A stretch of DNA of 64,000 nucleotides, taken from positions 1 to 64,000 of the forward strand of contig JAULBX010020632.1 in the NCBI GenBank assembly GCA_032358255.1, written 5' to 3'. The first letter of the stretch is position 1; each line of letters starts with the position of its first letter. Made by a program: the position numbers and the translations under genes. Below are positions 13,730-42,400 of the stretch, one piece after another. The notes below the pieces were generated by a model. That model was not told the DNA's origin and ran no database searches. It saw only the letters and a list, made by a program, of their open reading frames with translations. Source of the stretch: Heterotrichella gracilis (taxonomy: Eukaryota; Sar; Xanthophyceae; Tribonematales; Xanthonemataceae).

Positions 13730-14788
13730 CTAGGGCCCACGCGGAAACCTGGTCCGTAACAACCCTCCAACTTGCGCCGTGAATTTTGCAAACATGGCCT
13801 GGATGTTGTCGTACGCACTATCCAGAAAAATTGGCTGGTTGAGGAATGCAGTTTTGTTTGCAAGAATGTCGTCGAATTTTTCGTCAAAACTTGAAGTGTT
13901 CCTAGGATCAAAGAACAAAATGCTACCGGGATCTAATATGCCTGGCTCCGGGTCGGGGTTTCCCCAATAAATGGGTATCGCGCCTCCATGAAACGCCTGG
14001 AAAAGCTTTTCTGTGACATATCCATGGTGGTTTGAGTTTTCGGTGCAAATATTGAATTGGTATTTGCTCACAAATTCCAACTTGGCTGTACGGTTGTTCT
14101 TTCCCTCTCCATGCCGTGATGCGCTGCCAGGGAGTCCCGGCACATTATGCTTGAACTTGGAAGGACAGTGTACTTGTGTCCCACGAGAAGTCAAGTGGTT
14201 GTAGATCACGCCTCGGATGTTTTCGTGCCCTCCATGCCGTGCGATCAGTGATGCCCCGTTGTCTGAAATCAACTTGAACCCAAAGACGCTGTCGAGTATG
14301 TTGGTGTGTACCAAATCGGGATAATAGTACAGCCATAGAGGAAAGCGCACGTGCTTGGGGTGGTTCGTCCACTCAAAACCCATGTAAAGGTCGTAATTCT
14401 CAGTCAGGCTGTCCATCTCATCCTCGATCCATTCACCGCTGAACAAAATCCTGATCACATCGTCTCCAAAACTTGGCAACGGTTCCAGGGCGAGAACATT
14501 GCCTCTATAAACACCACCATTTGTAAAAACGATGTCGACCGTCGACGCGTTGACAACATCCGGGGTCTCGTTAACCAATGTAAACGAGTACTCGTCACTG
14601 AAAAGGTGGTTCAGCCACTGCATGAACGGCTTTGAGCCACCTCCCCAGAACCCCACAAAGTGAACCCTTAGAGGTTCCCCCAAGGGTGCGGCTGCAACCA
14701 TGGCAAATGCAACAACGCATGACGCCACAAGCCAGCGCAACGCAGCACAGCGGAAAAGTGGTGGCGCCTTGCTAGCAAAATACGGCAT
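13730..14788 (-). CDS. GT10-family alpha-fucosyltransferase-like protein, intronless
   Basis: A single open frame of 352 residues starts at the ATG at 14786-14788 and ends with TAG. Residues ~12-33 form a hydrophobic signal anchor (ALRWLVASCVVAFAMVAAAP), as expected for a type II Golgi enzyme. The donor-binding block near residues 235-275 reads YQFNICTENSNHHGYVTEKL followed by FHGGAIPIYWG. This is the GT10 signature Y.F...ENS....Y.TEK......A.PI.WG found in alpha-1,3/1,4-fucosyltransferases, which move fucose from GDP-fucose to GlcNAc or glucose. The 352-residue length fits a compact GT10 enzyme with little stem. It is the only clear gene in the window without introns, so retroposition or transfer from a bacterium or virus is possible. 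It lies near O-FucT, GT34, GH10-like and GT92 genes. The acceptor cannot be told from sequence. Confidence 0.93.
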   Translation of the reverse strand: MPYFASKAPPLFRCAALRWLVASCVVAFAMVAAAPLGEPLRVHFVGFWGGGSKPFMQWLNHLFSDEYSFTLVNETPDVVNASTVDIVFTNGGVYRGNVLALEPLPSFGDDVIRILFSGEWIEDEMDSLTENYDLYMGFEWTNHPKHVRFPLWLYYYPDLVHTNILDSVFGFKLISDNGASLIARHGGHENIRGVIYNHLTSRGTQVHCPSKFKHNVPGLPGSASRHGEGKNNRTAKLEFVSKYQFNICTENSNHHGYVTEKLFQAFHGGAIPIYWGNPDPEPGILDPGSILFFDPRNTSSFDEKFDDILANKTAFLNQPIFLDSAYDNIQAMFAKFTAQVGGLLRTRFPRGP

Positions 14789-14789
14789 A

Positions 14790-15780
14790 CTGGGCCACTA
14801 GCTATGTCCCCTACCACAGTATACCCAATCTGTCGCCCCTGCAGGTTGTAGGAGTTACCACTATAGCGATTGGGCCGGCGGGGCTTGGGCTACGAGGTAC
14901 CGCCGTGCGCTGTGGTAGGTCTGGAGCCTGCCCACCTGCCTGCTGCACGCCTGCACAACACAAGTGCCTCAGCAACTGGCACACCGCACTTGCCAGGTGG
15001 CCCATCTTGTGGACACTTAGCCAAGCGACCCGAGCGAGCAACACCTGCAGTCTGCCTTCACACATCAAAGCCAGGAGGAAGCAATGCCAACACAGCAGAA
15101 CCACACAGACAAGTATAGGCAACTGCCGCGTTGACCATGGTGTCTCTATCAGAGGGTGAGCCTGAGCTGGTGCAGAGGCAATGTTCAGGTTCAAGTCCAT
15201 AATGCCCTGACTTAGAAACGGAAGCAAGCGCAAAATAAATTGCACCCTACCACTGGTCATGGAAACAGACAGGACTGTGGTTGAGACTGCTGTGGTGGGT
15301 GTGGTGGGATCCTTTTTCAGGTTAGGAGGGCGTGAGGAGCCACATGCACAGGGCAAAAATACCCTAACAATACCCGTGAGAAAGTGCTACGCACACAAGG
15401 TTTGTCGCACAGCAGCAACTAAGACTGTAGGAGAAATGCAATGGTTGCGACTGAGAGGTTGGTGCGGCACCGCAATGGTGCCCCACGGTTCCAAACATGC
15501 ATGACCAAGTGTCTGGAAGAAACGGAAAACGAAGCAAATGATCTGTATCCGTGATATGCAGCGCGCTGCATCACATATAAAGCTAGGCAAATAGCGTGCT
15601 ACTGCCATGGAGGCCGGGCTAGTTCAAATTGGGTTCCACTGTGGATGGCATGCATGCAAGAATGGTGTGCATTGTTGTACCCACCAGCGCCCACCAGCAC
15701 CCACCAATACACCCAGTTTGTACTGGTACTAGGACGGCAGATCCTTATGATGTATTTGGATCGCAGCCGTGTGATGCGGC
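14790..15780. other. Upstream flank of the GT10 gene
   Basis: The stretch lies 5' of the GT10 gene. A 181-codon minus-strand frame at 14811-15356 and plus-strand frames over the same bases have no recognisable domain. Promoter elements for the GT10 gene are presumably within it, but I see no clear TATA box. Confidence 0.35.
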
Positions 15781-16141
15781 GGAGGTCGACCAGAATCAGA
15801 ATAATAAGGTCCCGGCCGCATCTCAAAGAGACATAGGCTACACGCTGAGACAGGGGCAGGCATTCCCTGCAGCGGAGGGGTGCAGAGCAATGCGCGCTCT
15901 AAATTTACAAGGCAATACAGGATGTGGGGTAATCATCCCCAGTTGAGGAGCAAGGATCCCCAAGCTGAGTCAGGAGTGATGGAGGGGCCGCTGCGGAATC
16001 ACCCGCGGATTTCGCCAAATGTGGTCGAAATACGGACACCCGACTTACCTTTTTTGCTAGCGGGGAAAAAGGGACAGGCATGGTATTAACGTTTTCGGCC
16101 CCTGCCAGAGGGCCTTATCAGATACCTTTGTCTCTCAGCTC

Positions 16142-16217
16142 TGGGATTTGAACCCGCGACCTGCCGGCAGTCAGGAATCACCCCGTGTGCTCGACCGATA
16201 GCGAGTGTACCCTCCCA
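16142..16217 (-). repeat. tRNA-derived block (A and B boxes), copy 1
   Basis: On the minus strand this reads as a decayed tRNA. It has a D-arm-like CTCGCTATCGGTCGAG matching box A spacing, and a perfect box B GGTTCAAATCC within GCGGGTTCAAATCCCAG. The outer base pairs of the T stem and the acceptor stem are poor, so it is not a working tRNA. It could be a pol III internal promoter of a SINE absorbed into the repeat. Confidence 0.6.
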
Positions 16218-16989
16218 GGGCGTCACCGAGACATTTTCCCCGACTTTTAATCAGCGGTGGGAGCTAGCTTCCGTCGGCGCTGCCCGAGCCGCTGCGTCCT
16301 TGATCCATGCCAATCGACGGCCGGAGGAAGTAATCGCACAATCATTTGCCTCGCGAGCGGCTCCTGATTGATAGAGTACCTTCCCCGACTGTCCCAATCA
16401 ATGGTCGATCACACAAACGATGACCATCGTATGGCGTACGATGGACATGCGATTGTGCTTGATAATCTCCCAGATCAGTCCCTCCCAGCGGGATTGCAGA
16501 TGGGCACCGGCCCCATCCAGGAATGATCGATTGGCCCGTCACAATTCCACGTGGCACCGTTGATCAGACGGTGCCTCACGGGGCCGCCGCGGTTTGCGGC
16601 CCCGAATTTGGTGCAGTGTGGGGTGCAGGTCATATTCAGAAAATCAGAATAATAAGGTCCCGGCCGCATCTCAAAGAGACATAGGCTACACGCTGAGACA
16701 GGGGCAGGCATTCCCTGCAGCGGAGGGGTGCAGAGCAATGCGCGCTCTAAATTTACAAGGCAATACAGGATGTGGGGTAATCATCCCCAGTTGAGGAGCA
16801 AGGATCCCCAAGCTGAGTCAGGAGTGATGGAGGGGCCGCTGCGGAATCACCCGCGGATTTCGCCAAATGTGGTCGAAATACGGACACCCGACTTACCTTT
16901 TTTGCTAGCGGGGAAAAAGGGACAGGCATGGTATTAACGTTTTCGGCCCCTGCCAGAGGGCCTTATCAGATACCTTTGTCTCTCAGCTC

Positions 16990-17065
16990 TGGGATTTGAA
17001 CCCGCGACCTGCCGGCAGTCAGGAATCACCCCGTGTGCTCGACCGATAGCGAGTGTACCCTCCCA
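16990..17065 (-). repeat. tRNA-derived block, copy 2
   Basis: This is the same tRNA-like block as at 16142-16217, displaced by 848 bases in the second 705-base terminal repeat and apparently identical. Confidence 0.6.
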
Positions 17066-17359
17066 GGGCGTCACCGAGACATTTTCCCCGACTTTTAATC
17101 AGCGGTGGGAGCTAGCTTCCGTCGGCGCTGCCCGAGCCGCTGCGTCCTTGATCCATGCCAATCGACGGCCGGAGGAAGTAATCGCACAATCATTTGCCTC
17201 GCGAGCGGCTCCTGATTGATAGAGTACCTTCCCCGACTGTCCCAATCAATGGTCGATCACACAAACGATGACCATCGTATGGCGTACGATGGACATGCGA
17301 TTGTGCTTGATAATCTCCCAGATCAGTCCCTCCCAGCGGGATTGCAGGTCGACCAGCTT

Positions 17360-19770: not shown

Positions 19771-22700
19771 TCATTGTAGCTTCAGCTGTGCAAGTGTTGC
19801 CTCCCACTCAAAGGGCTGCGTGTGCTGGCCCAGGCCTTGCAGCTGCGTCGACAGCTGGTAGGCCGCGGCAAAGGACTTGAGGTAATCATGCGCACACTCG
19901 TGGATGTCTTGGCTGGCCTGCAAAAGGGAATTTGTGAGCGGTTATTCCATCCACTTTATCCATTGCATCTCAAACCTCCTTGAACCTTAGCAAAATCATA
20001 AACTTCATTGCGTACAGGCTTCGCGATGCATTTGCTGCCTGGTGTGCATTTCACGCCATGAACTGCAATTATGAAACAGCCAAGCTGAGCGGCACAGCAT
20101 GTGCAACTATGGTCATTTGGATGTACTGCTGGAAATGATGTAACCGCGTGCATTTCAGCAGTACAGCAAGGCTGGCATGGCTGGGTACCATATGCATCAC
20201 CATAGTGCAAATGCCAAGGCTTGTTGACCAACTTTTTTAAAAGTGTGATTGACAAGATCTCTTGTTTGATGCCCCCAACCTGCAGGGATGGCATAAACCT
20301 ACCCACCCTACCTGCAAGGGGCGGCTGCATCGTACAAACCCTACCCACCCTACCAGCAAAATGGAAACAAAACCCTGCTAGCCCTACGCACCCTGCAAGG
20401 AAAGTCCTGCATTCTGTATGGCCCAGGCAAGTCAAAGCACTACCTCCACGCGTGGCATGCATAGATCTGACCACATCACCCGTATGGTCCCTACACCCTC
20501 CTTACGGGGCATCGCCTACCCATACCCATCCTACCTGCGAGGGCCGGCAGAACTGGCAGCCCGCAAAGTGTATGATGAGCGCCGTCACGGGGGAGTTGAA
20601 CGGGAAGTCGTGTATGGCGCCGGAGATGTTGAGTCCCATGGAGGGCGCGATGGGCACGTTGCGCCACCAGGCGTGCATCACCCAGCTGCTCCACGTGTGA
20701 ATGAGCATCTTCTCCCGCCACTCGGGGTGCTTGGAGGCAAGGTACACCAGGCCCAGCTGCTCCTCCATGACTATGTCAAAGGGGGGGGCATCGGGGCCAA
20801 GCTCCTGGTGCATGTCCTGGGGAGGGAGGGTACAGGAGATCAAAAAGGAAGGGTGCAAGCAGTTCAAGGGGGAGGAGGAATGAGGACAAGGGTAAATGGG
20901 TGAAGTATGTACCCTACATGGTCATTTGCCTGCTGGAAATTTCCAGGCTACATTCCAAGTTCAATGATAAGATCCATACATTCCAGCAAGTGCATGTCAT
21001 ATTTCAAGGGCAGGGGAGATGGGTGCTGTGCACACAGTTGTGGTTATAAGCTGCACTTTCCCTTGCCATTGCAGGCTTGATGCCAACTTGACACTTGGCA
21101 GTTTGCATTTTCCCTTCGTAAAATGGTTTTAACCCGCACCCGAACCCTGTACACACCTTGTGTAGCTCATGCCTGTCCTTCCAGTTGGTGCCCAGGTCCG
21201 CCAGCTCAGCAAGCATCATGCGCGTCCAGTCGGTGTTGCGCAGGATGATCACACCTCCGTTCCACCCTGGACCACAACACCCACAGGGTTGACATGGAGC
21301 CACATGAGTGGGAAAAGTGCACCTAGCTCGTCATGGACCATGGTTTGTGGCGGCAGTGGCTGGTGCCTGTGGCTCTATTGGCGGTGGTGCCTACAATGTG
21401 GTGACCATGGCCAAAGGTGTAGAATTCACCCTATATCCTAGCACGGGGGATGCATGGTGCAGCCCCAAATCTGAGCTGATCTAAATGTCCAAGTGAGGGT
21501 ATATAGGCGCTAAAGTTTGGGGTCCAGGGTCATGAGGGCCGGCTAGTGTGTCCAGGTGCCCAGGTGCAGGTAGTGTGGGGAGTTAGCACGCACCCTGTAT
21601 GCAGTCCTTGGTCTTGTAGAACTTCTCCTCGTCCCCCCAGATGATCAAGTCCTTGCCCGCGAACGACTCGAAGGGTATCTGCTGCTGCATGTTGAGGAAG
21701 AACGCGTCCGCGTCCACCCACATGATCCACGGGTACTGCTGGTTGTCTGCAAACATCTTGAGCAGCGCCACCTTGTTCCAGGACCCAACCACTGACCCGT
21801 TCACTGTGGCCACGGTGTACCAGAAGCGGTACCCGTGGAGCCTGGGCAAGGAGGGTGGTCACAATGGTGCAGGGTGGTTGTGAAGAGGGTTTGTAGTGGT
21901 TGAGATGGACGATGTGTTGCCACTGCATTTACAGCGGTCATTACACGACATGCCATAGGAGATGAGTGCACCATCCACACGTTGCAATATCTTTCGCATT
22001 CGATATGCTTGCGCACATCCCTGCATGCATATGCAACCTTTGTGGAAATGCCTATGCACCTTGGGAGGCAATTGCTCGCTAATGCCATGGGTGGATAACA
22101 TGGCGGGCACGAGCTTGGCAGCACAAAATGTCATGTCTCAGGTATCGACTGCTAGTCAACGAGGCATTGGTGAGGTGTGCACATATGCCAGGGCGTGGTC
22201 CTGGTCACAGATGGCCCTCGTGACTGGTAGTTGCCACTGCACTGATGGTACATGGCGCAAACACGGGCTCAAGGCAGGTCGCCACACAAACCTATGCCCA
22301 ACTACGCTGCCAGAGGCACAGCTGCCAGTGGCAATTCTCCCGCACCAGCGGCGGTAAACGTGCAGGGTATGCTGAGGTCAGGGAAGAAGGTTTAGACCGC
22401 AAGGTGCGTGCTTTGTTGGTGGGCGCACTGAGGGCATAGGGCCAAGGGTACCTGGCCACACTGTGCTAGAAATATACTGTTGCCTGATTGTTGCAGCATT
22501 TTTCAGCTATTTGCTTCCTGGCCCTTGCTGGCAAACCAGTGCCCCCACTCCTGGCTGTCATGGGCACCTACCTGGCATAGTCCAGCTTGTTTTGCACCGC
22601 CAGGTTGAACATGTAGCTGCCCATATTGGACTCACACAGCGCGGAAGGCAGCGCTGTGAGGATGAGCAACCTGTGCTCGTGATGAGGCCGCGTTGAGTAC

Positions 22701-22909: not shown

Positions 22910-24700
22910 GTTCTCTACAGCTGCTGTTGCAGACAGAGCTGGCTTTCCAACCAGCTGGAAGCGACACTACTGGCTGGTTGCTAGTTTTTGAAGTAGAAAA
23001 CTCTGTGAGTGTAACCAAGGTTTCTAAATTGTCAGAGGGACAAACAATGTTGCACACTAGCCAACGTATGCACCACCAGCTTTGCCCCGGTTATCCACAT
23101 TCCCACGGTATGCAAAGCAGATCCACTCCAATTCAGGCGCGTGCTTGCAACATACCCTGCCAACATGCACAGCAGTGCAGGCAGCGTGGCCACTTACGTG
23201 TCAAGGCTGCCCCTCCCCTCCCCATGGCACTTACTACCGCCAGATTCTGAGAGCCACGCCACGCTCTCTAGGCCACGCGATCACGTACTATGCAGACCCC
23301 GTTGCACAGATAACGACAGGCTCTGTAAAAGGGTGGCCGTGTCCGAACCAACACTGGGGTGTGCGTACTCGTATTAGTATTGGTCGTGACCGTGTATATT
23401 TGCAGCTGTGATGGGCAAAACCAATTGAGGATCAACCATCCTCGGCGTGACGCAAGCTGCCAGTTCAGACCCATGTCACACTGGCGAGTCGGTCTACATT
23501 CAGTGCAACTCAGGACCTAGTGCACCTCACCACCGGTAGCAGTAAAGTTTAAAGTCTGAGATGTTGACCAGCACTTGTGGGTCGGAGGGCAGGCGAGTAC
23601 GGCACGAAAAAAAGGGTTCCCTTCGTGGACTACAAAATAGGCCTTTCTTCTTGTTAGCTACGGATTTGGGTTATAACTTTTGATGCGTGGCGTCAGCAGT
23701 TCGTGAGTGCGTGAGTGCTTGCAGCATATGCATGCATTGGCATGTGGGTGACGGGCCGCAGTCAAAGCATGTTCAACCATGGCGGCTTTGTGGCACAAAA
23801 CTTGAGCAAGCTCAGCCATTTTGTCATGTATCCCAAATAAGCTTTGGATTCTTGCCTGCGTGGCTTGTGTGGTACACCACCTGCTGCTGGGGTACCCGGT
23901 CCCTGGGCAACATGGCGTTCACGTTGGCGCAAGGAGAACCACCAAGTGGTAGCTAGGTCAAGAGGTGTGGTAGGTTGAGTGATACCGTTTTCCGGTTGAA
24001 CCCACATCACGTGGTTACTGCCAGGGGACTCAGTTTTGCGGTGACAACAAGCTTATTGTGAGGATATCTCTCCAGGGTTGCACAGGAAATAAAATCTTCA
24101 CAGAACTGTGGCGAGCTTTGTTGCCAAGAAGTGACACACCCAAACTGTGGTTTGAAACTCAGTGTAGGTTGTAGCTATTACATATCATACCCGATGCAGT
24201 ATGGAGCTCAACGTAGTCTGATATAGACACGCAGTGGCACACAGGGCTAGCAAGTTTGCAATGCACAGGTACAAGTGGACATGGTTAAATAACGAACACA
24301 ATCACGCAAAAAAAACAAAAAAAAGACGTGGTACACAAGGTCTTTCAACCGTGGGGTCACCAATAGTAATATCTGGAAACAATGGAAAATACATTCCGGA
24401 CTGTTTTCCCATAATTAACGTTCGAAAATGTAAGGCAGTTGCTGGTAAAACCCAACAGCCTTGGTTGAGCATTAGGTTGGTTCAAGGCTCGGTTTCCACT
24501 GAAACATGTTGAAATTCAACACAGTGTGGGCACTGACAACGGTTGCGATACCTGGTGAAAACTCCCAAAGACGCCCTATAATAAGGGATACTGTTCTGCA
24601 AAAGTTCACAGTGCATCACTTATAAACAGTGCTGTGTATTTTTCCTTCCTATTGAGGACCCAAAATTTGCAGCACCTGCAATCCAGCCGAAAAATGCACA
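22910..24700. other. Intergenic between GT34 and GH10-like genes
   Basis: This covers the 5' flank of the GT34 gene and the 3' flank of the GH10-like gene. I recognised no coding exon, RNA or repeat. The short ORFs over 22927-23411 overlap one another in several frames and look like chance. Confidence 0.45.
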
Positions 24701-24702
24701 AA

Positions 24703-27700
24703 CTACTTGAGGGTTGCTTTTGCACTCAGGTTGGGCTTGCCGCCGGGTGGTGCAGTGAACGCCACAGTGCCCTTGTAGGTTTTGCCCCCAACCTTTGCTG
24801 TGTACGAGTAGGTGCCGTAGTACCCCTTGAATGAAAACACCCCCTTTGCCAGGTTCACCCTTGATTTGCGTGAAATGGCTGTGGTGAAGGTCTGGGTGGT
24901 CAGCTTCTTCCACACCTTGGCAGCGGGCTTCTCCCTCCAGTCCTCTGCAAACATCCCGCACTTCTTGCACGCAGCGTCCTTGTCCCAGAAACCGTTGTGG
25001 AACACGCCCTTGACAGCCGGGGTTGAAAACAGCCAGGTGAGGTACTTCTCGTAGAAGGCAGCCACCACATCCTCGCAGTCGCCCCTGCCGTTTTTGTTAC
25101 ACAGGCCCTCAGCCGAGACACCTGCCCCCCCTGAGATGGGGTCTGCAACTGCAAAGGACGACATGTACAGGTCTGCCCCGGTGGACGCCAGCTGGCCAAT
25201 GCGGTAGCCAAAGGCCTTGGCTGTCAGGTTGTAGCCGATGGATATCAGCTTGACGGGGTAGTACTCGGGGCCAATGCTGTAGGGGGGGTCATTCCAGCCC
25301 ACCAGCTTGGCCACGCGGAAGAACTCGTCCATGGCGATGCACTTGACGGGCGCCCCCTTCTTCTTCATTGCGTTGGCCAGGTCCCGCACCTGCTCGTACT
25401 CCCCTGGGAAGGGAAGCCCTAAGGGCCTGCTGGTTGTAAGGAGGTGTGAACCCTGCACAGGAAAGGAACACGGCGGGTCAGGTATGGGTGCATGCCAATG
25501 AGAAGTCCATGGGCTGGGATAGTGTGCTGCTGGGAGCCCTAAGCGGCAATGGGCGGGTCATATTAACAGTGCACCAGCCAGACATATGAAACAGCCAGCC
25601 AGTATTATATTGCTTCTCAATACTAACAGGACCAAAAAAATATTTTGCATTTTCTTTTATATTTTTATGAATAAATGATATGGCCAGTTTTGTTTTACAA
25701 GCGGGGCATGCTCAGCAACATGGGCCAGCCCTTTGCCTCTGTAATCACGCATGTTGTGCTTGCTCACCAAGACTGCATGGATGACGCATAAACACGAATC
25801 CGCCCGCAGAGCCGACGCATATACAACCCCTACACCCTGCCACTCTGGTGAGGCTGGCGCACCTGGATGCAGTACTGCCCAGCAGCAAAGTCCGCCTGGG
25901 CCCACTTGAACGCGTCCACCGCAGTGGTCAGCTCCGCATGGCACTTCTTAACGGGCCCGTCGCGAGATGTCACCCCGTCAAAGATGGTCCACAGTGGGAT
26001 CTTGCTCTTGAACCACCCAATCTCCATGTTCAGCACGTTCTTCAGGGCAGTGGCATAGGCTTTGCATGACAGGGACCGGGTGTAGTGCTTGGCAAAGTTC
26101 CCCCCGTTCCCAAAGCTCTCAATTGAGCCCCGCAGCACCTTGGAGCCGTACTTGGCAAAGAAGGGGGTGTAGGCCTTGTCCAGCAATTTGGATACCTACA
26201 GCGTCACACAGCAGTATCATTAGCTGTTCACACCCCAATACCCAGTAAGGATGGAGTAAGCAAGTGAAAGCGTGCTCCTGTGAAACGCTTATAAGCCAAG
26301 GCTGAAACAGGCACGTTCGGCGATCGCCGCATGTGAAATCCCAATTGCTTACCCAGTTAGGCATGTTGAAATTGCCTTTCTTCTCAAAGGATGACCACTG
26401 CAGGTAGTTCTTGATGTAGATGGCGTTGAACTGCTTGCCCAAGATGTTCTCGTATTTCGGAACATCAGGCGTTGTTTTGAAAGCCATGTCGTGGTATGAA
26501 CTCTGAGTACCTGTGGAAATGTGAATGGGATTTAGGTTTAGTACAACGCCATTTCAGAATATATATTTATTCCCGTACTTTTTGGGGCGCTTCAGCATTG
26601 GAGTCAAACCAGGACTATTTACTAATACTTTGCTGCACCAGCTCTGCCCATTTTGTAACGTTGATGGCATTACCAAAGCAAAGGGAACCACTTGCAGACA
26701 AGTCTCCGCAATGCGCATGGGGTCGCAGGCAAGCCCAGTACTACAGGCCGCACGCAAAACTCCGCCGTAATCCAGCTCAGGCAAAGAATGCAATGTCACT
26801 ACCCTACAGGGTCCACAGATGCCACACAAGAACACACCACTGGTTTCCAGCTCGGCACCAAGCCCTAGGAAGGGTTGGCAGGTTCGGGGAGGCAGGGCAC
26901 CTACCCCAGAGGAACATGTGCTTCGTTAGCTTGAGGTCCAGGCTCTCCAGAGCACCCAGCGCCTTGCCATTCTTGTCCACAAACCCCAGCTTGAGGTTGC
27001 CCATGCGGTTCTGCTCAATGCGGGTTTTGATGCTCTGAGGGGTGCCCCAGTTGACATCGAGCTTCTTCTCCACCAGCTGAAAGTCGTCGTAGTACATGCG
27101 GGTGACCGCAAAGGAGATCTCCAGTGCAAAGTAGTAGTGCACCTCCTCCTCCGCCACCTCCTCGGGGATGTCCCAGTCCAGCAGCTCGTACTGTGCCCAC
27201 TTGGTGGTGAGCACGTAGGTGTTGGCACCGTACATCCAGGGCTCCTCTGTGTGGCGGGCAAGGGGGGGTTAGCAGGCAGGCTCAAGGGGAATGGTTTGGT
27301 TTTGTAAGCACACTAGGGGAGGAGGGCTGGCCAACTCATCCCCACACCCGGACGCGGCATCAGAGGAGGAACAGGTGGGTCAGGGGGACGGGTAAGGGGT
27401 GCGGAGGGAAGCAGGTGTGTGCCCGAACGGCACCTTTGCACAGACAGCAATTGATGGTGGAAAGGGAAGCCGTTGTTTGGTAGGCTTGGAGGTGGTGGTG
27501 TACCCAGGACACAGGTGCAACCGGTAGATTCCAGCACAACCAGTTTACAATTACCGGAAACGCGCAGGGCACCAGACAAGCATAGGACACCAGATACGCA
27601 GTAGGGCACAGCCTTCAGCACCCCAAACTCAACAATGCACTGCCACAAAATCCCAGCCTTTCAACCTACTTTTCAGCCCCTTGTATGATGTTACCCTGTA

Positions 27701-28987
27701 GATGTGCACACCAATCACTCCAGCATTTTCGTCGTCGGCACGCGCCCAAAACCTGAGGCCATACATCTTGGCCCTGCTCCATGTCATGACCGGAGACTTG
27801 ATTTGCAAGTACCAGTTCTGCCCCTTTGGAGGGATCCCGTAGACCACGGTTTCAATGCCGTAGCTTCCGCTATGAGCAGCACGGCGGGAGCGCGGGTAGT
27901 AGTCAAAGAACTCGTGGCGCTGCACAGGCCACAAAGACTGGTGAGATGGGGCTGGGCTGGCAACTGCTTGGGCCCGTGCGTGATCAAGATATCAGACAAG
28001 ACCCTGGCAGGGTTGACAGGGAGGCATATGCAGAAACCACACTTGAGAACAGGATCCCCAGCCAACCAAGTTGTCAGAAGGGTTTAGGGTTCACACCCAT
28101 AAGCGGGTGGCTGGCAAGGAGGGGCCACGTCACCCTGCCCAAATTGGGGTACTCTGGTCTAGTTAGAGGGGGTTTACATTTCCATACACCCCTTTGGGTC
28201 GATTATGTACAGTAACGTGCACGCAGGGGAATGCATTGGCCATGCCATGATAAAGACTAAATGCAACTCTGTGCAAGCCCTCCACACAGCAAACACCCCT
28301 CAGGCCTGGCATCGTGTCTAGGGTCTCCAGCTTTACCTCGTTCAAGATCTGGACGAAGAAGGGGTTGTACCCCGGCAAGTTCAAGCCCTTATCATCTTCG
28401 CAGGTGGGGCACGTCTCGATGATGGCAATATCATCAATATCCAAGATGGAGCCCGCCTTGTTGGACATGAAGCTGAAGCTGAGGGTACGCTCAGCCGTAG
28501 CGTTTATGTAAAAACTTCTCTCATAGAACCGCCAGTCCTTGACCAACAGAAAAGCATACGATTTGGTTTGATCATTGAAGCCGCTGTTGCTGATGAGAAA
28601 GTTGAGGCGGAAGGCAGCTGGCGCTGACAAGGGCGCGCGGGCATAGAACTGCAGGGTGTAGTAGTAGCCTGGCTTGGCCTCAAATTTCTGTGTGCACAAA
28701 AACCTTGCGCGGCTCTGCGCACCGCCCACGTCAGTTTGAAGAACCGTGATCCGGGCCCCAGAGTTGCCATAGTGGGCAGCATCTGCGGATGCCAGGTCCA
28801 GGCTAGCCGCCCCCTTGAAGCTGCTGAACTTCCTCCAGATGAAGGGTCTGGTTGCCTCCGACTCAAAGGTGACGTTCAGCTTGACGAGCTGTGCCAGGGG
28901 TTTGGAGTGGGCTGCTGGGAGGGTGATGGCCAGGAGGAGGAAGAGGACAGACAGGGTGGGGGCGCACAGGCACCACCGGCCTGCCAT
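24703..28987 (-). CDS. Plant-type CBM-CBM-GH10 xylanase homologue, probably catalytically dead
   Basis: Six exons (28987-28337, 27919-27670, 27246-26905, 26510-26353, 26195-25863, 25452-24703) keep frame throughout and give 827 residues. The ATG at 28985-28987 is the first of the frame. Residues 1-28 are a signal peptide (LSVLFLLLAITLPAAHS). Two CBM4_9/CBM22-like beta-sandwich modules follow (~34-200 and ~218-400), then a GH10-like barrel (~405-735), and a short tail (~740-827) like the beta-rich C-terminus of plant GH10 enzymes. The alignment of FKSKIPLWTIFDGV and IGQLASTGADLYMSSFAV with canonical WDVxNE and LGLPIWLTEVDV puts Gly541 and Ser677 where the acid/base and nucleophile glutamates should be. 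RGH is RGS and ENEMKW is KNYLQW. It is secreted and probably binds wall xylan or a related glycan without cutting it. The acceptor of the last exon could also be at 25412. Confidence 0.92.
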
Positions 28988-29064
28988 GGTGGGCAGGTGG
29001 GGGCCACGCTTGGAGGTGGGGGGCAGCAGGTGAAGGCGAGCCAGAGGCACCTGGGGAGACAAGG

Positions 29065-31240
29065 TGGGGTTGTCAGAGTAAAACCTTTATAAAGGCTTGC
29101 ATGCAGAGGTGGGTGACTTGCCACTAGTACTGACAACCAACCAGTGAAAAGGTCGGGTTGGTGCTTTTGTAGAGCATGCACCTTCAGGCCCATGCTGGAA
29201 GTGCCCAGTGCAATGTCTGGGCCAGTGGGCTTGGCATACAAACCAGCACAACCTGCAAACCTGTGTCTGTGTAGTTTGCAGATGAAGAGTTGGCTGGCTG
29301 GATACAAAGTACCGGACTTGCTAGGGAGAATATTTGAGGCAGAAACTGGCCATGACCGTGATGCACTTTGTGTGTAATGCATGGGCATTGTCAGTGCCGA
29401 AAAAGGCGCACTCGGCGGCCGTATTTGCAAGAGCTTTGAAGGAAAACGGCAGCAGGTTCCACCTGCTCGAGGCTGACGGGATGCAGCGGCGTCGTTACGC
29501 CTGGCGTTCCTGACTGGGTGCCTTGCCAGTGCCCACCTGGCATGCAACACCTGGCATGCAACACCTGGCAGATAGTCCTCCCCGAGATGCAACGTACTAG
29601 CTACTCACGCATGGATAGCAACCTGGTGTCACTGAGAGTGGACAGGCCACAACCCGTGAGGCCAGGCCAAAACACGTTGGTTTCGTTCAGCATGCAACGT
29701 GGCATACCCGATCTTTCCGTGCCACACGCAACTGTGCGCTTCAATGAGACTATCGTACCAAGGTGCACCTACGATGCAACCTAACAGCTCCACTATGCGT
29801 CGTCAATCGCCGCGCGATGGCAAAAGGAACCCGAGCCAGGTGGGGATTGTGGGGACATGGAGAACGAAACGAAAGGCAACCACCTCATGCGTAGGTGCTT
29901 GAAAGAGCACTAGGACAAACAAAACCAGGCAGTATCGACCTATCGTTGTTGGCAGCGCACCCACCTCACCACAACCGGTGCGCCCACGACGAAGTGCCCA
30001 CAACGTGCTATAGGGTGGGCAGAAGAAGGACGCAGAACGCCAGCCTCGAACAGCGCTCTTCCTGTACACCTGTGGCGGCTCTCAAGTAGTACTCTGCTCG
30101 ATGGTGTTTCAGTAATCCCAGTGTGCTACTCAGTCTGTTGTACACCTGTTTAAAGCTGTGTTGATGGGCAGCGGGGTGTTTAAAGCTATCTTGATTGCCA
30201 ACCTGGCCAGCGAGCCACTTGAAGTGGTGCCGCGCACGTGCACAGAAACCCTAAACCTTAAACCCTCGCTGCGTCTGGAAACCGTTTGTGGACTTTCGCC
30301 TGACTGAAAAGACCGCAAATTAGGCACTTTGGCGGTGCTTTTATATTACCCATCAGCCCTGATTACCCATTCAGAGGGACACATGCTAATGACACATACG
30401 CTAGAAGCCAGCACCCCAAACGGGCAGCTGGGAGGTCTAAGACAAGTGCGCCCCCCTGAATCTGTGGAGCCTCCACAGAATGCGCTTCATGCATTGCACA
30501 TGCCACAATTGTCATGCCTTGGTTTAGTCCTCAAAAGTATACCACTACCTGGCGCATTGGCCCGGACCGTCAGTCAAGCAAAGAATTTAATTCAGTTGGC
30601 TGTTGAAGTGAACTTCAGTGCAAGTCAAACAACGAAAATTCTTTATGGAATCATCAAGGCAAAAACGCAGCTGGCAGTGTAGTTGCATCCCTTATTGCAA
30701 GTTGGGGTGGTGAAGGCAAATCGTTTCCTTCACAGCTCTAGCAACATCAAGCACTCCGTCACACTAAGGACGTACGCAAGGCAGTGCGCCAGCTCAACAA
30801 TTGGTGACCCTCTCCACCATGCAACCCTGACCATGATGGCCACATGCTATTTTGAGTTGAAGGCAGGTAATACCCTAAACATATACTATACGAAACTGCT
30901 GGTAATGTCCTAAATACTGCTGACAGCAGAGAGACAATAGACAATCAGTGTACATATTCCAGGAAATAAAAAAGGGGACTTGAAACAACTTCGGATGACA
31001 AAAACATTAAGGTAGCTGAGGCAGGTGTGAAGTAAAAAAAGTGAAAAGGTAGGTCACGCTTGGCAAAAACACTGCTATTTGTTCTCCATAGCACACAGTA
31101 CCCGCATGGCATGCAATACTTGAGTCTGAGGGACTCAACCTGATGGGAATCAGGGAATCGCCCAATGCCACCCAGTCTGCGCTGCATCCCCTAAGTGTAA
31201 TGCCCCCGTATCATTGCTCTTGGCCCCATGCCCAAGCAGC
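29065..31240. other. Intergenic between GH10-like and GT92-like genes
   Basis: I saw no supported exon. A short direct repeat of CACCTGGCATGCAA lies near 29535-29570, and a weak CCCTAAA-like block lies at 30247-30267. The 117-codon ORF at 30329-30682 has no recognisable domain. Confidence 0.4.
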
Positions 31241-31242
31241 TT

Positions 31243-33280
31243 TTAAAAGTGAACAATGTACCCACAGCTTGTTGCATTTCTGGCAACGTGGGTTGTGAAA
31301 TGAAGGGGAGTGTCGTTCCTCAGCCAAGCATGGTGCACCGATACCACCCCCGCGATATGCTCAGGGCGTATCAGCGGTTTGGGCCTTTTGAGTGTGAAGC
31401 CATCGGTGATGTTGAACATGCGGTAAAACTCCAACTCATGATACGACACTGAGCTGACCACAGCAGCAGCGTGACGTGCACAGGTCTTCCAAACGCGCTG
31501 CAAACAAGTTGTGCTTTCGCATACAGTTGCATGGCTGCTCAAGCATGGTGATTGCGATTTCTTGTCTGATTGTGCTTCTGTTGGCTGTGCCATGCCCTCA
31601 AGGGGAAACTTCATGTCATAGAACAACCTCATATCCATGTAGGGATTGGCGTACTCTGGAGTGAAGGCGTTGATCCGAGGTAGATCAGACGCTCCTGTGT
31701 TGTGGAAGCATCCACCTTGCGCAAACAAATCTACCACGCTGTTGAAGTGTAACATATCGGTACATATGTTACGAGAATTCAATCCAAGACGCCCTTTTGC
31801 TGAATGTTACATTGGTTTCAGACACGGTTGCGACCCAGGAGGTCTCAGGTTCGAATCCCGCCGGGATCGAAATCGGGTTTTCCCGCCGTTTTTTCTGCTT
31901 CCGCTCGAAACTTTCACCCCATTAGTTCAGTTTCAGCAAACAGGTGGGCTACTCGTACAGAATTACGGGGGAGGTTGCGCAGCTCTGTTGGGAGGGGGGA
32001 GGAGATTCCCAATCCAACACGCCCTTTTGCTGAATGTTACATGAAGGGCACATTGGTGGCGAAAATCTCGTCAATATCCTGAGCAATGATGATGGCATTT
32101 GCGCCATACATTGCGAGCGTGTGATATGTGTTTTGCACCTCTTGGTCGTCAAATCCTGAAAACCAAGTTGCACAATGCGTTTCAGTTAATGAGTAAGGAT
32201 TTTTGTGAAATTTTATCATGCTTCAGCAAAGGATCAACAAGGGTGACTCAATGGCCTGACTTGTTGCGGTAGCTTACCGGCGCCCGTGAGCCTGATGCGC
32301 GAGGGGTCCACGATTGGCACATCATCCTGCAATAACAACAGCTGCAACCATCCTGACTTGACCAGGCGCTTTGAAATAGGGTGCGCCGCAACTGTGTCCA
32401 CCTGCCCAGGGCGGAGCGTCATCAATGCGCCCGAAAAGCCCAAGCGCATGTGGTACATCAAGTTCAACTCCAGCGCCTGCAGGCTCACTGTGTTGAGATG
32501 AGCATTTGCCAAGTCTTTGAATGTGACTGCTTTGTAGCTGAGGTATACTGATGACGGAGGCTTGCCGTGCACTGCCACAAGGAGGTTGTCTGCTTTGTGG
32601 TGGCTGCAATAGTCCATACCCACTGACATGAGGCCCTGATAGAGCCACAGGGGTGCCACTCTCGTCCATGACTTGCAGCAGCCAGTGGTGTGATGTGCTG
32701 TTTTCTGGATCAATATCTAGCGACAGGAAAGTGGGTGTGACGCGCTGATGTACAAGGGCCCAGGTGTCGCGGGACATTTGATGGAATGGATATGAGAGGC
32801 GTTTGACGGGATCCACAATCCGGATGTCAGGCTTCCAGGAGGTGAGTTCTGAGCTGACCCAGTGGTTGGGCTTGCCAAGAATTGGCTGGTTTTGACGAAT
32901 GTAGTAGTAGCCCCTTAGCCACGTGTTTCTGGAGGCACCGCACGAACGAACATGGAAGCACCGTAAGCAAACATGAAGCAGTACAGTGTGGTTGACAGTC
33001 ACATCTTCTCGGTGCACCACCGCTGATCCTAGGAGTTTGAACTCCTGAATGGCCAGGTCCTGTTGGAGGGGTTTGCCAAGTTTAGTAAGTGACGAGGAAA
33101 ATTGTGAGCACTAAGTGTGTTGCAATCTAATAGTGAGTGTGCCCACCTGTGGGGTCTTGTAAAAGGGCCGTTCAGTGAAGCGGCAGAGGTGTGTGTGATG
33201 GCGGGCAACATCAGGATGGTAAGAAGTAGCATCGCTAGGGATGGCGAGATCGGAGGAGATTGGGGGGGCATGGTTGGCAA
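31243..33280 (-). CDS. GT92-family glycosyltransferase-like (galactan-synthase type)
   Basis: Secure 3' exons are ~32650-32278, 32155-32041 and 31738-31243, which join in phase and end in TAA. They carry LELNLMYHMRLGF, the metal-binding DxD in IIIAQDIDEIF, and later LIRPEHIAGVVSVHHAWL with a C-terminal HF. Together these resemble the GT92 (formerly DUF23) family, whose plant members are Golgi beta-1,4-galactan synthases. Upstream, an exon from 33059 (DLAIQEFKLLGSAVVHREDV onward) is open for over 130 codons. A candidate first exon near 33280-33160 has a hydrophobic start (SLAMLLLTILMLPAITHTSA). The reading frame changes near 32650, so either an unplaced intron or a frameshift lies there. The 302-base last intron holds a SINE-like insertion. 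I am fairly sure of the family and unsure of the 5' half. Confidence 0.7.
31780..32042 (+). mobile_element. SINE-like tRNA-derived insertion with 33-bp target duplication
   Basis: A 197-base insert (31813-32009) lies between direct repeats at 31780-31812 and 32010-32042 that differ at one of 33 positions. The insert begins with a box A-like TGGTTTCAGACACGG. About 30 bases on comes a perfect box B, GGTTCGAATCC (near 31849-31859), inside a T-arm-like AGGTTCGAATCCCGCC. This is the layout of a tRNA-derived SINE head. The 3' part is not A-rich. The insert lies in an intron of the GT92-like gene, opposite to its transcription. Without the insert and one repeat copy the intron would be about 72 bases. 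Confidence 0.75.
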
Positions 33281-39422: not shown

Positions 39423-42400
39423 CTATTGCTGATATGCACTATGTGCCCTAAGCCGCGCCACTTTCTTCCTGTTCCAATCGTCCAGAAACAAGCGCACATT
39501 AAACATGAATGCCTCTTGCCCCATCTGTGTTATGCTAGCTTTGATGCGCCTCAATGCGCTATTGCACTGCTCAGCTATTTGCGAGTTCAACCTCGCCAAC
39601 TCTGGTGCCTCATACAAAACCAAATTGTAGCTGCGGGCGCATGCATGGTGATTCCGCCAATGAAACCGGTCAACCAAAAATCGTGTATTCCCGAAAAAAT
39701 TGGGCTCCCGATTGAGACAGTAATCTTGCAGAGAACATGCAAAATCATAGACCACCACACGCGGGGCCCTTGCAAACCTGGTCAGCAATAATGTGAATGC
39801 CTCATCACGCCCTTCAGCAACAGGCAACATGTAAAAGCCGTAGCACACACCGTGCTTGCAAAACCAAGTGAAAACCCCCCCGGTGCGACGCCCATGCATG
39901 GAAAATGCATGGGTGCACTCAGAGGTGTTGTCCCTTTCAGAATCCATGGCATAATGACCACGTGGTCTGACCTGTGGCACCTCTGTGCATATGCCACTGT
40001 GAAGGCATGCATCTGTGTTGCACGATGGGGGTGCTTGGGGGGAAACAACAGGGGCAACGGGTGGACCTGACATGCATTCCTCTGTTTTGTGAACCAAATG
40101 CGAGAAAACAGTGGCAAGGATATCAGGAAACTGCGCACCACCCGCATTCACCACGCCCCCCCCCGTCTGCTGAATAGCGTCAATCAAATGGGCAATGATG
40201 GGTGAATCACCCCTCAAATGGACAGCATCACCAAAAGAAATCATGCCTGGAGCATGCTGAAGAAGCCGGTGGAAAAAACCCGCTGTCCAGGGTGGAAAAT
40301 ATGATACAACGGGGCTGTCAGAGGCCAAGACTTCAACAAAATGGGAGATTTTAATGCGCTGCTCAACGGTAAGGCGCATGCCTGCAATCTGGTTATGTAT
40401 CCATAGGAAAACCTCTGCACACTGGATAGTGTCCGCCATATCCAACAACACCTCCATGTCACCAACAGGATTGAAGGGTCATGCTGATGGTGGCTGGCCC
40501 CGCATGGCATGGTTCCCGCCGTTGACATAGTGCGCAAACCGCAGAATGGCTTGCTGCGCAGCCGGTCTGCGCGCCGCCAACCCACGCACCCCACATGCGC
40601 ACCGATCTGCACGTGAGTGGCACCGCTCCACCTGAGGCTGATTGGTGTCATGACCGGTGATGTCAGTGCCGTGGTAGAAACGCTGCTGTATGGTAGCGTG
40701 CGTTGCATCCCCAACCAAAATGTCTGGGGAGTCACCGCACAGTGGGCACTGAAACGTGTACTGCCGCTGCAAGTTGTATGCAAACCGGTAGTAGCAACGC
40801 CGGAACGTGGAGATGGAACAAAATGACTGCACTGGAGGAGGCTGCCCCCCCAATGCCTCCTCCTCCTCCAATTTTAGCTGCCGCACATACCCCCCTAGGC
40901 TGCAACCTTCGGCGATGAACTGCCTTATGTAGTTGTAAATCAGTTGCAGGCTCATGTAGGTTTGCTCGCTGTACTTGAACAAACCCCACTGCTCGGCTTG
41001 ATGGTGGTCAAACACGGATGTGCAGCAGCCATGTGGGCACTTGAGGTCACAAACGATGACCGAGCTGCTCCTCAATGGCCAGGGCTGATGCAACGCAGCA
41101 CTGGGCTCGCGCACCACCAAGCGGCTTCTCCAATGTCCAGCAGTGAATGGCGCCCCGCAATTAGCCAGGGCCCCACATGAGCAGCTTGCCTGGCAGCCCT
41201 CAATGCCTGGGCAGCTCGCCGGGTGGAGAGGATGGATGTAGGTGTATGCTCCATGCTGGCCGCATTGTACCATGTGATGGAAATCCATCTGCTGGCGGAT
41301 GGTGGCTGTGGGTGGATACACGGTACCAGGTCCTACCCGCTGAAAAATGGTGGATGGGTCATCCTGCCGCGGATCGTCACCCCCCTCCTGCTGCAGCTGG
41401 GCCTCCTCCTCGAGGTCGAGGTTGCTGTCATCCTCAGGCCCCACGCCATTGACTTGCAGGTGGCTGCGGACAGCTTGTACACATGGGCAGCGGTTGCCAT
41501 GGACCCCCCCACGTGTCCTGCAGCTGTATGCTGGGCCTTGCGGCGTGGCGGTCACTGCAACAAAGCTTCCCCTCGCCCAGTAGCACGTAGGCGCAGCCCC
41601 ACGCACAAAATTGTTTCTGCTTTGGATTGGCACAACATCCCCATCCTGAGGCGCAGCCTGCTGTAGAAGAGCACTGGCATGCACCCGCACAAAATCCACA
41701 TGCACGCATCGAGGCGACAGCATGGCCATTTGCACCCCCGTTGCATAGGTGTCGCAGGTGCACCGGGCTGGGCGCTGCCCATCCACAGGCACATTCACCT
41801 AGGCAAACAATAGCGTGGCTGTGAGTATTGCTGGCAAACATGGTGGGCAATGGCTACACAGGTATCACTATGATATGATCAGTCAAGGTTGCTACACTGC
41901 CCTGCCCACAAGTGAATGTACATCAGAGAGGGATTGCACACTGAACATGGACACTAAACATTGCACTCTACACGTTGCACACTTGCACATCAAAGTAGGA
42001 GACTCATCAACTTGTGGCACTGTCATGAAAAGAAGTGTAGTTGGTGGCGGTTCACTTTGTGCCAACACCCTGTATCCCTCACCCTGTCCAGACATGCCCT
42101 ACCTTCTCAGGTGTTCTGCCCACAATCCCAGTGACAGCCTCCATGGTGGGTAATGCCCAGCACCGCTCCACACCACCATGCCCATCGTGGTGGTGCATGT
42201 CAATGCACACATCCTGAAGGCGAATAGGCCAGTAGAGAGAATGGTCGATCTCCAGTCTTGCGGCATACCACTCTGAGGTGCCCTGTGCTGCGTCCAGGCC
42301 CCTGAGGACAGCATCAGCAGCAGCTCGCCGAGTTGGCCCAATGTGGGGTTGTGCGTGGGTGCTAGCGCTGCGTCCAGCAGCAGCAGCTGCTGGGCCTGTC

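Follow-up and report, generated by a model that had tools for sequence, protein, structure and literature searches.

It is established that in plants some glycosidase relatives, of families GH18 and GH19, have turned into binding or inhibitor proteins. Narbonin, XIP-I and the chi-lectin TCLL are described in excerpts of PMC3091745 and PMC3662789 as GH18 TIM-barrel glycosidases in which catalysis was lost and binding or inhibition was gained, and excerpts of PMC10960159 report that the GH19 chitinase-like protein CTL1 of Arabidopsis and rice has no activity motif, binds glucan and has a role in the wall. The protein studied here, encoded in a window of 64,000 nucleotides from Heterotrichella gracilis (the whole stretch of DNA analysed), resembles CTL1, as far as those excerpts describe it, in being a secreted-type relative of a plant glycosidase without activity motif, its own secretion being predicted by eye. 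It differs in that CTL1 belongs to GH19 and has a helical fold, whereas the window protein is related to GH10. CTL1 is not known to carry linked CBM4/9-type modules. The GH18 pseudo-chitinases are of other ancestry than the GH10-related window barrel. Land plants have CBM22-GH10 proteins, in which CBM-type modules precede the barrel as they do here (excerpts of PMC4440533). Among the matches listed in a limited search of the open-licence literature, no GH10 pseudoenzyme was described.

The gene occupies positions 24703..28987 of the window on the minus strand. Its six exons (28337-28987, 27695-27919, 26905-27244, 26353-26510, 25863-26195 and 24703-25452, all minus) join to 2457 nt, that is 818 codons (818 aa), are separated by five GT-AG introns and translate with no internal stop; a second copy, on contig C332, likewise has six exons. 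The coordinates, strand and exon count proposed in an earlier note on this DNA are borne out by the introns and the stop-free joined frame. The translation, read by eye, starts with a signal-peptide-like segment (aa 1-28; 28904..28987, minus), and the protein is probably secreted. This segment is followed by two CBM4/9-type modules, the N-terminal one at about aa 29-197 (28397..28903, minus) and the second at about aa 218-355 (27056..27919, minus), which spans exon 2, intron 2 and the start of exon 3. The GH10-related barrel, taken together with its lead-in (about aa 356-755; 24895..27055, minus), runs from the end of exon 3 through exon 6, and the C-terminal module (aa 756-818; 24706..24894, minus) aligns with the same module of intact GH10 genes. 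When the whole window protein was compared with Pfam, CBM_4_9 was the sole family reported (two stretches, 25.6 bits; cut-off 25.9). Scanned singly against PF02018, the N-terminal and second modules gave 17.2 and 18.4 bits, both below the cut-off of 25.9; the former matched weakly a xylanase chain (3jxs, E 0.05) and the latter, also weakly, the laminarinase CBM 1gui (5.1e-4). The CBM matches are weak.

Several other features were seen in the window. Exon-like frames of another gene lie at about 31246-33110 (minus), and the hand-joined pieces of this gene matched no Pfam family. A match to a KDZ transposase at 39426-41798 (minus) scored 34.7 bits against a cut-off of 26.6; beside it lies a weak CxC4 match, below its own cut-off, and the stretch reads as a KDZ-type mobile element. 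Two stretches, 15794-16499 and 16642-17347, form a direct repeat of 706 bases with 100% identity, which arose either by recent tandem duplication or as an artefact of assembly.

Homology of the barrel to GH10 was established with sequences and profiles. In a phmmer search of the PDB with the C-terminal 459 residues, the GH10 xylanase 7d88 was the best match (E 7e-5); a profile made from the two copies matched the PDB GH10 chains more weakly than the single sequence did (best E 6.9e-4, again 7d88). Against the Pfam GH10 model the barrel alone scored 11.5 bits, below the cut-off of 22.1, and the model, run across the whole genome (assembly of 68.5 Mb, 903 contigs), gave seven matches, read as five genes, from which the window gene and its C332 twin were absent. 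Searching the same genome with the window protein returned 19 matches: six from the gene itself, six from the twin, which is 83% identical to it, and seven on contigs C30, C334, C451 and C454. These four contigs carry plant-type GH10 paralogues with DVWNE and I[TS]EFD[LV] motifs, that is with both catalytic glutamates present; the one on C454 scored 147.5 bits with the Pfam model, and identity of the window protein to the intact paralogues is 23-30%. Profile-profile alignment by hhalign of the two window-type copies with the four intact genes gave a probability of 100 and an E-value of 1.9e-40 over 398 columns at 30% identity, the barrel and the C-terminal module being shared. The differences from the paralogues are the loss of both glutamates, insertions after strands 5 and 6 of the barrel, and the Pfam GH10 score below cut-off. 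In a tree of six rows the two window-type copies formed one group with full support and a long stem. Among viral and prokaryotic contig collections the two-copy profile found no relatives, although 123 (viral_contigs) and 40 (genome_contigs) pattern matches were obtained.

The rows of the four intact genes were joined by hand from exon pieces whose borders were guessed; each motif segment, however, lies within a single open frame. Some exon-like stretches of the C334 and C451 genes occur in two similar copies, of which one each was used. This doubling concerns similar, overlapping or adjacent stretches around the catalytic motifs (L031 3713-4119, plus strand; L028 3900-4286, reverse-strand numbering) in the C451 and C334 GH10 genes, and may represent exon duplication or an assembly artefact. 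A further GH10 gene, on the 894 kb contig C1 (L001, G000:C1:797921-798841), is intronless, has both glutamates and was excluded from the alignments and the tree. Because this gene looks bacterial, the assembly probably holds a contaminant, contig C1. The assembly, taken in this analysis as that of a green alga, gave 43 matches to light-harvesting proteins, and for one of these, a CP26-like protein, the best PDB matches were chains of green-algal photosystems (6kac, 7pi0 and 8bd3); rbcL was looked for in the assembly and not found.

Both catalytic glutamates of GH10 are lost from the window protein. The acid/base position is occupied by G532 (25974..25976, minus) and the nucleophile position by S668 (25156..25158, minus), and the C332 copy has the same two residues. 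The earlier note had claimed this double loss, and profile alignment with the intact GH10 genes, used in place of the structural superposition that the note had proposed, agrees with it; its residue numbers (541 and 677) are nine too high, since WTIFDG starts at 527 and LYMSSFAV at 664. In the phmmer alignment WDVVNE of the xylanase 2g3i falls without gap on WTIFDG, the alignment stopping short of the nucleophile. With hhalign, E179 stands opposite G532 and E281 opposite S668 (numbers of the C454 row), and the multiple alignment has the same catalytic columns. The intact-gene profile matches 7d88 with 3e-54. In the part of the alignment displayed, 7d89 carries alanine in place of precisely the two glutamates of 7d88, which marks the catalytic pair; where 7d88 has both glutamates, the window protein has G and S.

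Misalignment, with the catalytic glutamates present and placed in the wrong columns, could be argued from the C332 copy, which carries E immediately ahead of the acid/base column (WTIFEG), and from the low confidence of the three-dimensional model of exon 6 folded alone with no alignment (pLDDT 36.4, pTM 0.22). The acid/base block is nevertheless gap-free by three methods (phmmer, multiple alignment and hhalign), the window copy has D at 531, and the nucleophile strand contains no acid that could be shifted in, so that we consider this explanation very improbable.

The substrate-binding site is altered as well, as the earlier note had also proposed. Ten positions at which the four intact genes all agree were picked as presumed substrate-site positions on the basis of GH10 structures; nine of them differ in both copies and one is kept. 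The site lysine, the histidine and both tryptophans are gone, the histidine (H128) having been scored as gapped in this count, although hhalign puts S482 opposite it. The four intact rows agree at 94 positions altogether; both copies retain the shared residue at 37 of these, and at 55 both have another residue or a gap. Preferential loss at the substrate site was not significant (1/10 kept, as against 36/84 of the other invariant positions; Fisher p 0.08).

Conserved acids persist near the old site: D531, which is E in the C332 copy, and D611/E612. The latter two belong to the segment CIAMDEFF (aa 607-614; 25318..25341, minus), which in the multiple alignment replaces C[IV]G[VI][QE]AH[LI]. The main rival to a binding function is that the protein is still an enzyme whose catalytic acids have migrated to these places, 531 being located in strand 4, one residue before the old acid/base, and D611/E612 in strand 6, where they replace the substrate-binding Q/E and H. 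Both copies have an acid at 531 and an identical D611-E612, and migration has a precedent among some pseudoenzymes, such as the kinase POMK (excerpts of PMC10211241). Strand 7 (LYMSSFA), however, is free of acids, and the site has lost its lysine, its histidine and both tryptophans; these points speak against this rival, which we regard as unlikely. Between the copies, the 70 codons for aa 601-670 (exon 6; compared with L027) show no amino-acid change. We did not accept this identical block as proving a new active site, nor did we use it as functional evidence, because synonymous change is also low there (over aa 602-673, 52 sites show just 4 synonymous changes), a pattern that gene conversion would leave; the invariance around D611/E612 may have that origin. 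In the form of a re-wired enzyme, in which D/E531 of strand 4 and D611 or E612 of strand 6 would make a new acid pair for another reaction, the barrel would constitute a glycosidase family of its own. If this were true, the reaction might be, for example, transglycosylation or cleavage of a non-xylan polymer of the algal wall, and the barrel would found a family invisible to GH10 models; we hold this to be quite unlikely.

The C332 twin makes it possible to judge whether the altered gene is maintained. The duplicated unit, 24088..29556 of the window, matches C332 125734-131529 (blastn, E 1e-10), and no further similarity was found beyond it at the same threshold in the approximately 69.8 kb of C332 compared. 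Five of the six exons of the twin are equal in length to those of the window gene, all five introns are unequal, and the aligned introns are 61-77% identical. As read from the two loci, the unit is a dispersed single-gene duplication and not an allele. A simple pairwise estimate of dN/dS (NG86, own script) for the 818 codon pairs gave dS 0.318, dN 0.113 and dN/dS 0.357 (bootstrap 0.281-0.468). By part, the ratio was 0.81 for the signal segment (limits 0.1-2.6), 0.55 for the N-terminal CBM-type module, which is the least constrained large part, 0.15 for the second CBM-type module, 0.12 for the lead-in (aa 359-405), 0.38 for the barrel (aa 406-755) and 0.08 for the C-terminal module. Both copies contain 13 cysteines each, and these match in position. 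In 1000 runs of a neutral simulation with 0.159 changes per site, a mean of 11.8 stops per copy arose (minimum 3) and none of the runs was stop-free; neither copy contains a stop.

A dN/dS of 0.36, which is not very low, and the looser N-terminal module would be compatible with a pseudogene in decay or with a haplotype of the assembly. Taking into account the two intact, stop-free frames, the dS, the upper bootstrap limit of 0.47, the location on separate contigs without common flanks outside the unit, and the diverged introns, we rejected both as most improbable. The catalytic residues are lost while the frame stays under selection. Because the loss is common to both copies, which have no stops at a dS of 0.32 and a dN/dS of 0.36 where neutrality predicts about 12, the loss, on this reasoning, preceded the duplication, after which both copies were maintained. 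The second intact copy with the same loss, in a pair under purifying selection, supports the earlier proposal of catalytic loss in a maintained gene.

The simplest and most likely reading of these sequences is non-cutting binding of a wall or matrix glycan. We think it probable that the product is a secreted pseudo-glycosidase, whose CBM-type modules would dock on an extracellular glycan while the barrel binds or scaffolds it without cutting. In an old GH10-derived barrel both catalytic glutamates disappeared, together with most of the residues that surround the cleavage site, and the CBM-type modules, the C-terminal module, the cysteines and the reading frame were retained; the gene was then duplicated and both copies were maintained. 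The CBM-type modules would anchor the protein on an extracellular glycan, which the remodelled barrel would bind or scaffold, for example in wall assembly. Glycan binding without hydrolysis, as the earlier note had proposed, is suggested because CBM-type modules are present; their scores below the cut-off, the loose constraint on the N-terminal one (0.55), the conserved acids near the old site and the non-significant excess of losses at substrate-site positions are points against the model. Alternatively, the protein might be a secreted inhibitor or decoy directed against foreign glycosidases or other proteins, for which GH18 offers a precedent in the inactive XIP-I, reported to inhibit GH10 and GH11 xylanases (excerpts of PMC3091745 and PMC3662789). 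The sequence, however, gives no hint of a protein target and the CBM-type modules point to glycans, which leaves this alternative rather improbable. Elsewhere in the window there are matches to a GT10 fucosyltransferase (13733-14797, minus; 40.9 bits, cut-off 23.9) and to GT34 (21583-21855, minus; 26.7 bits, cut-off 23). Both neighbours share the strand of the gene; they would fit a glycan context and do not prove it.

As a pseudo-glycosidase, the protein would add GH10 to those glycosidase families from which, in plants or algae, an enzyme has become a protein that no longer cuts. The genome contains four intact barrels beside two altered ones, which makes direct comparison possible. Because the Pfam GH10 model does not report the window gene, the number of such proteins in algae may be underestimated.
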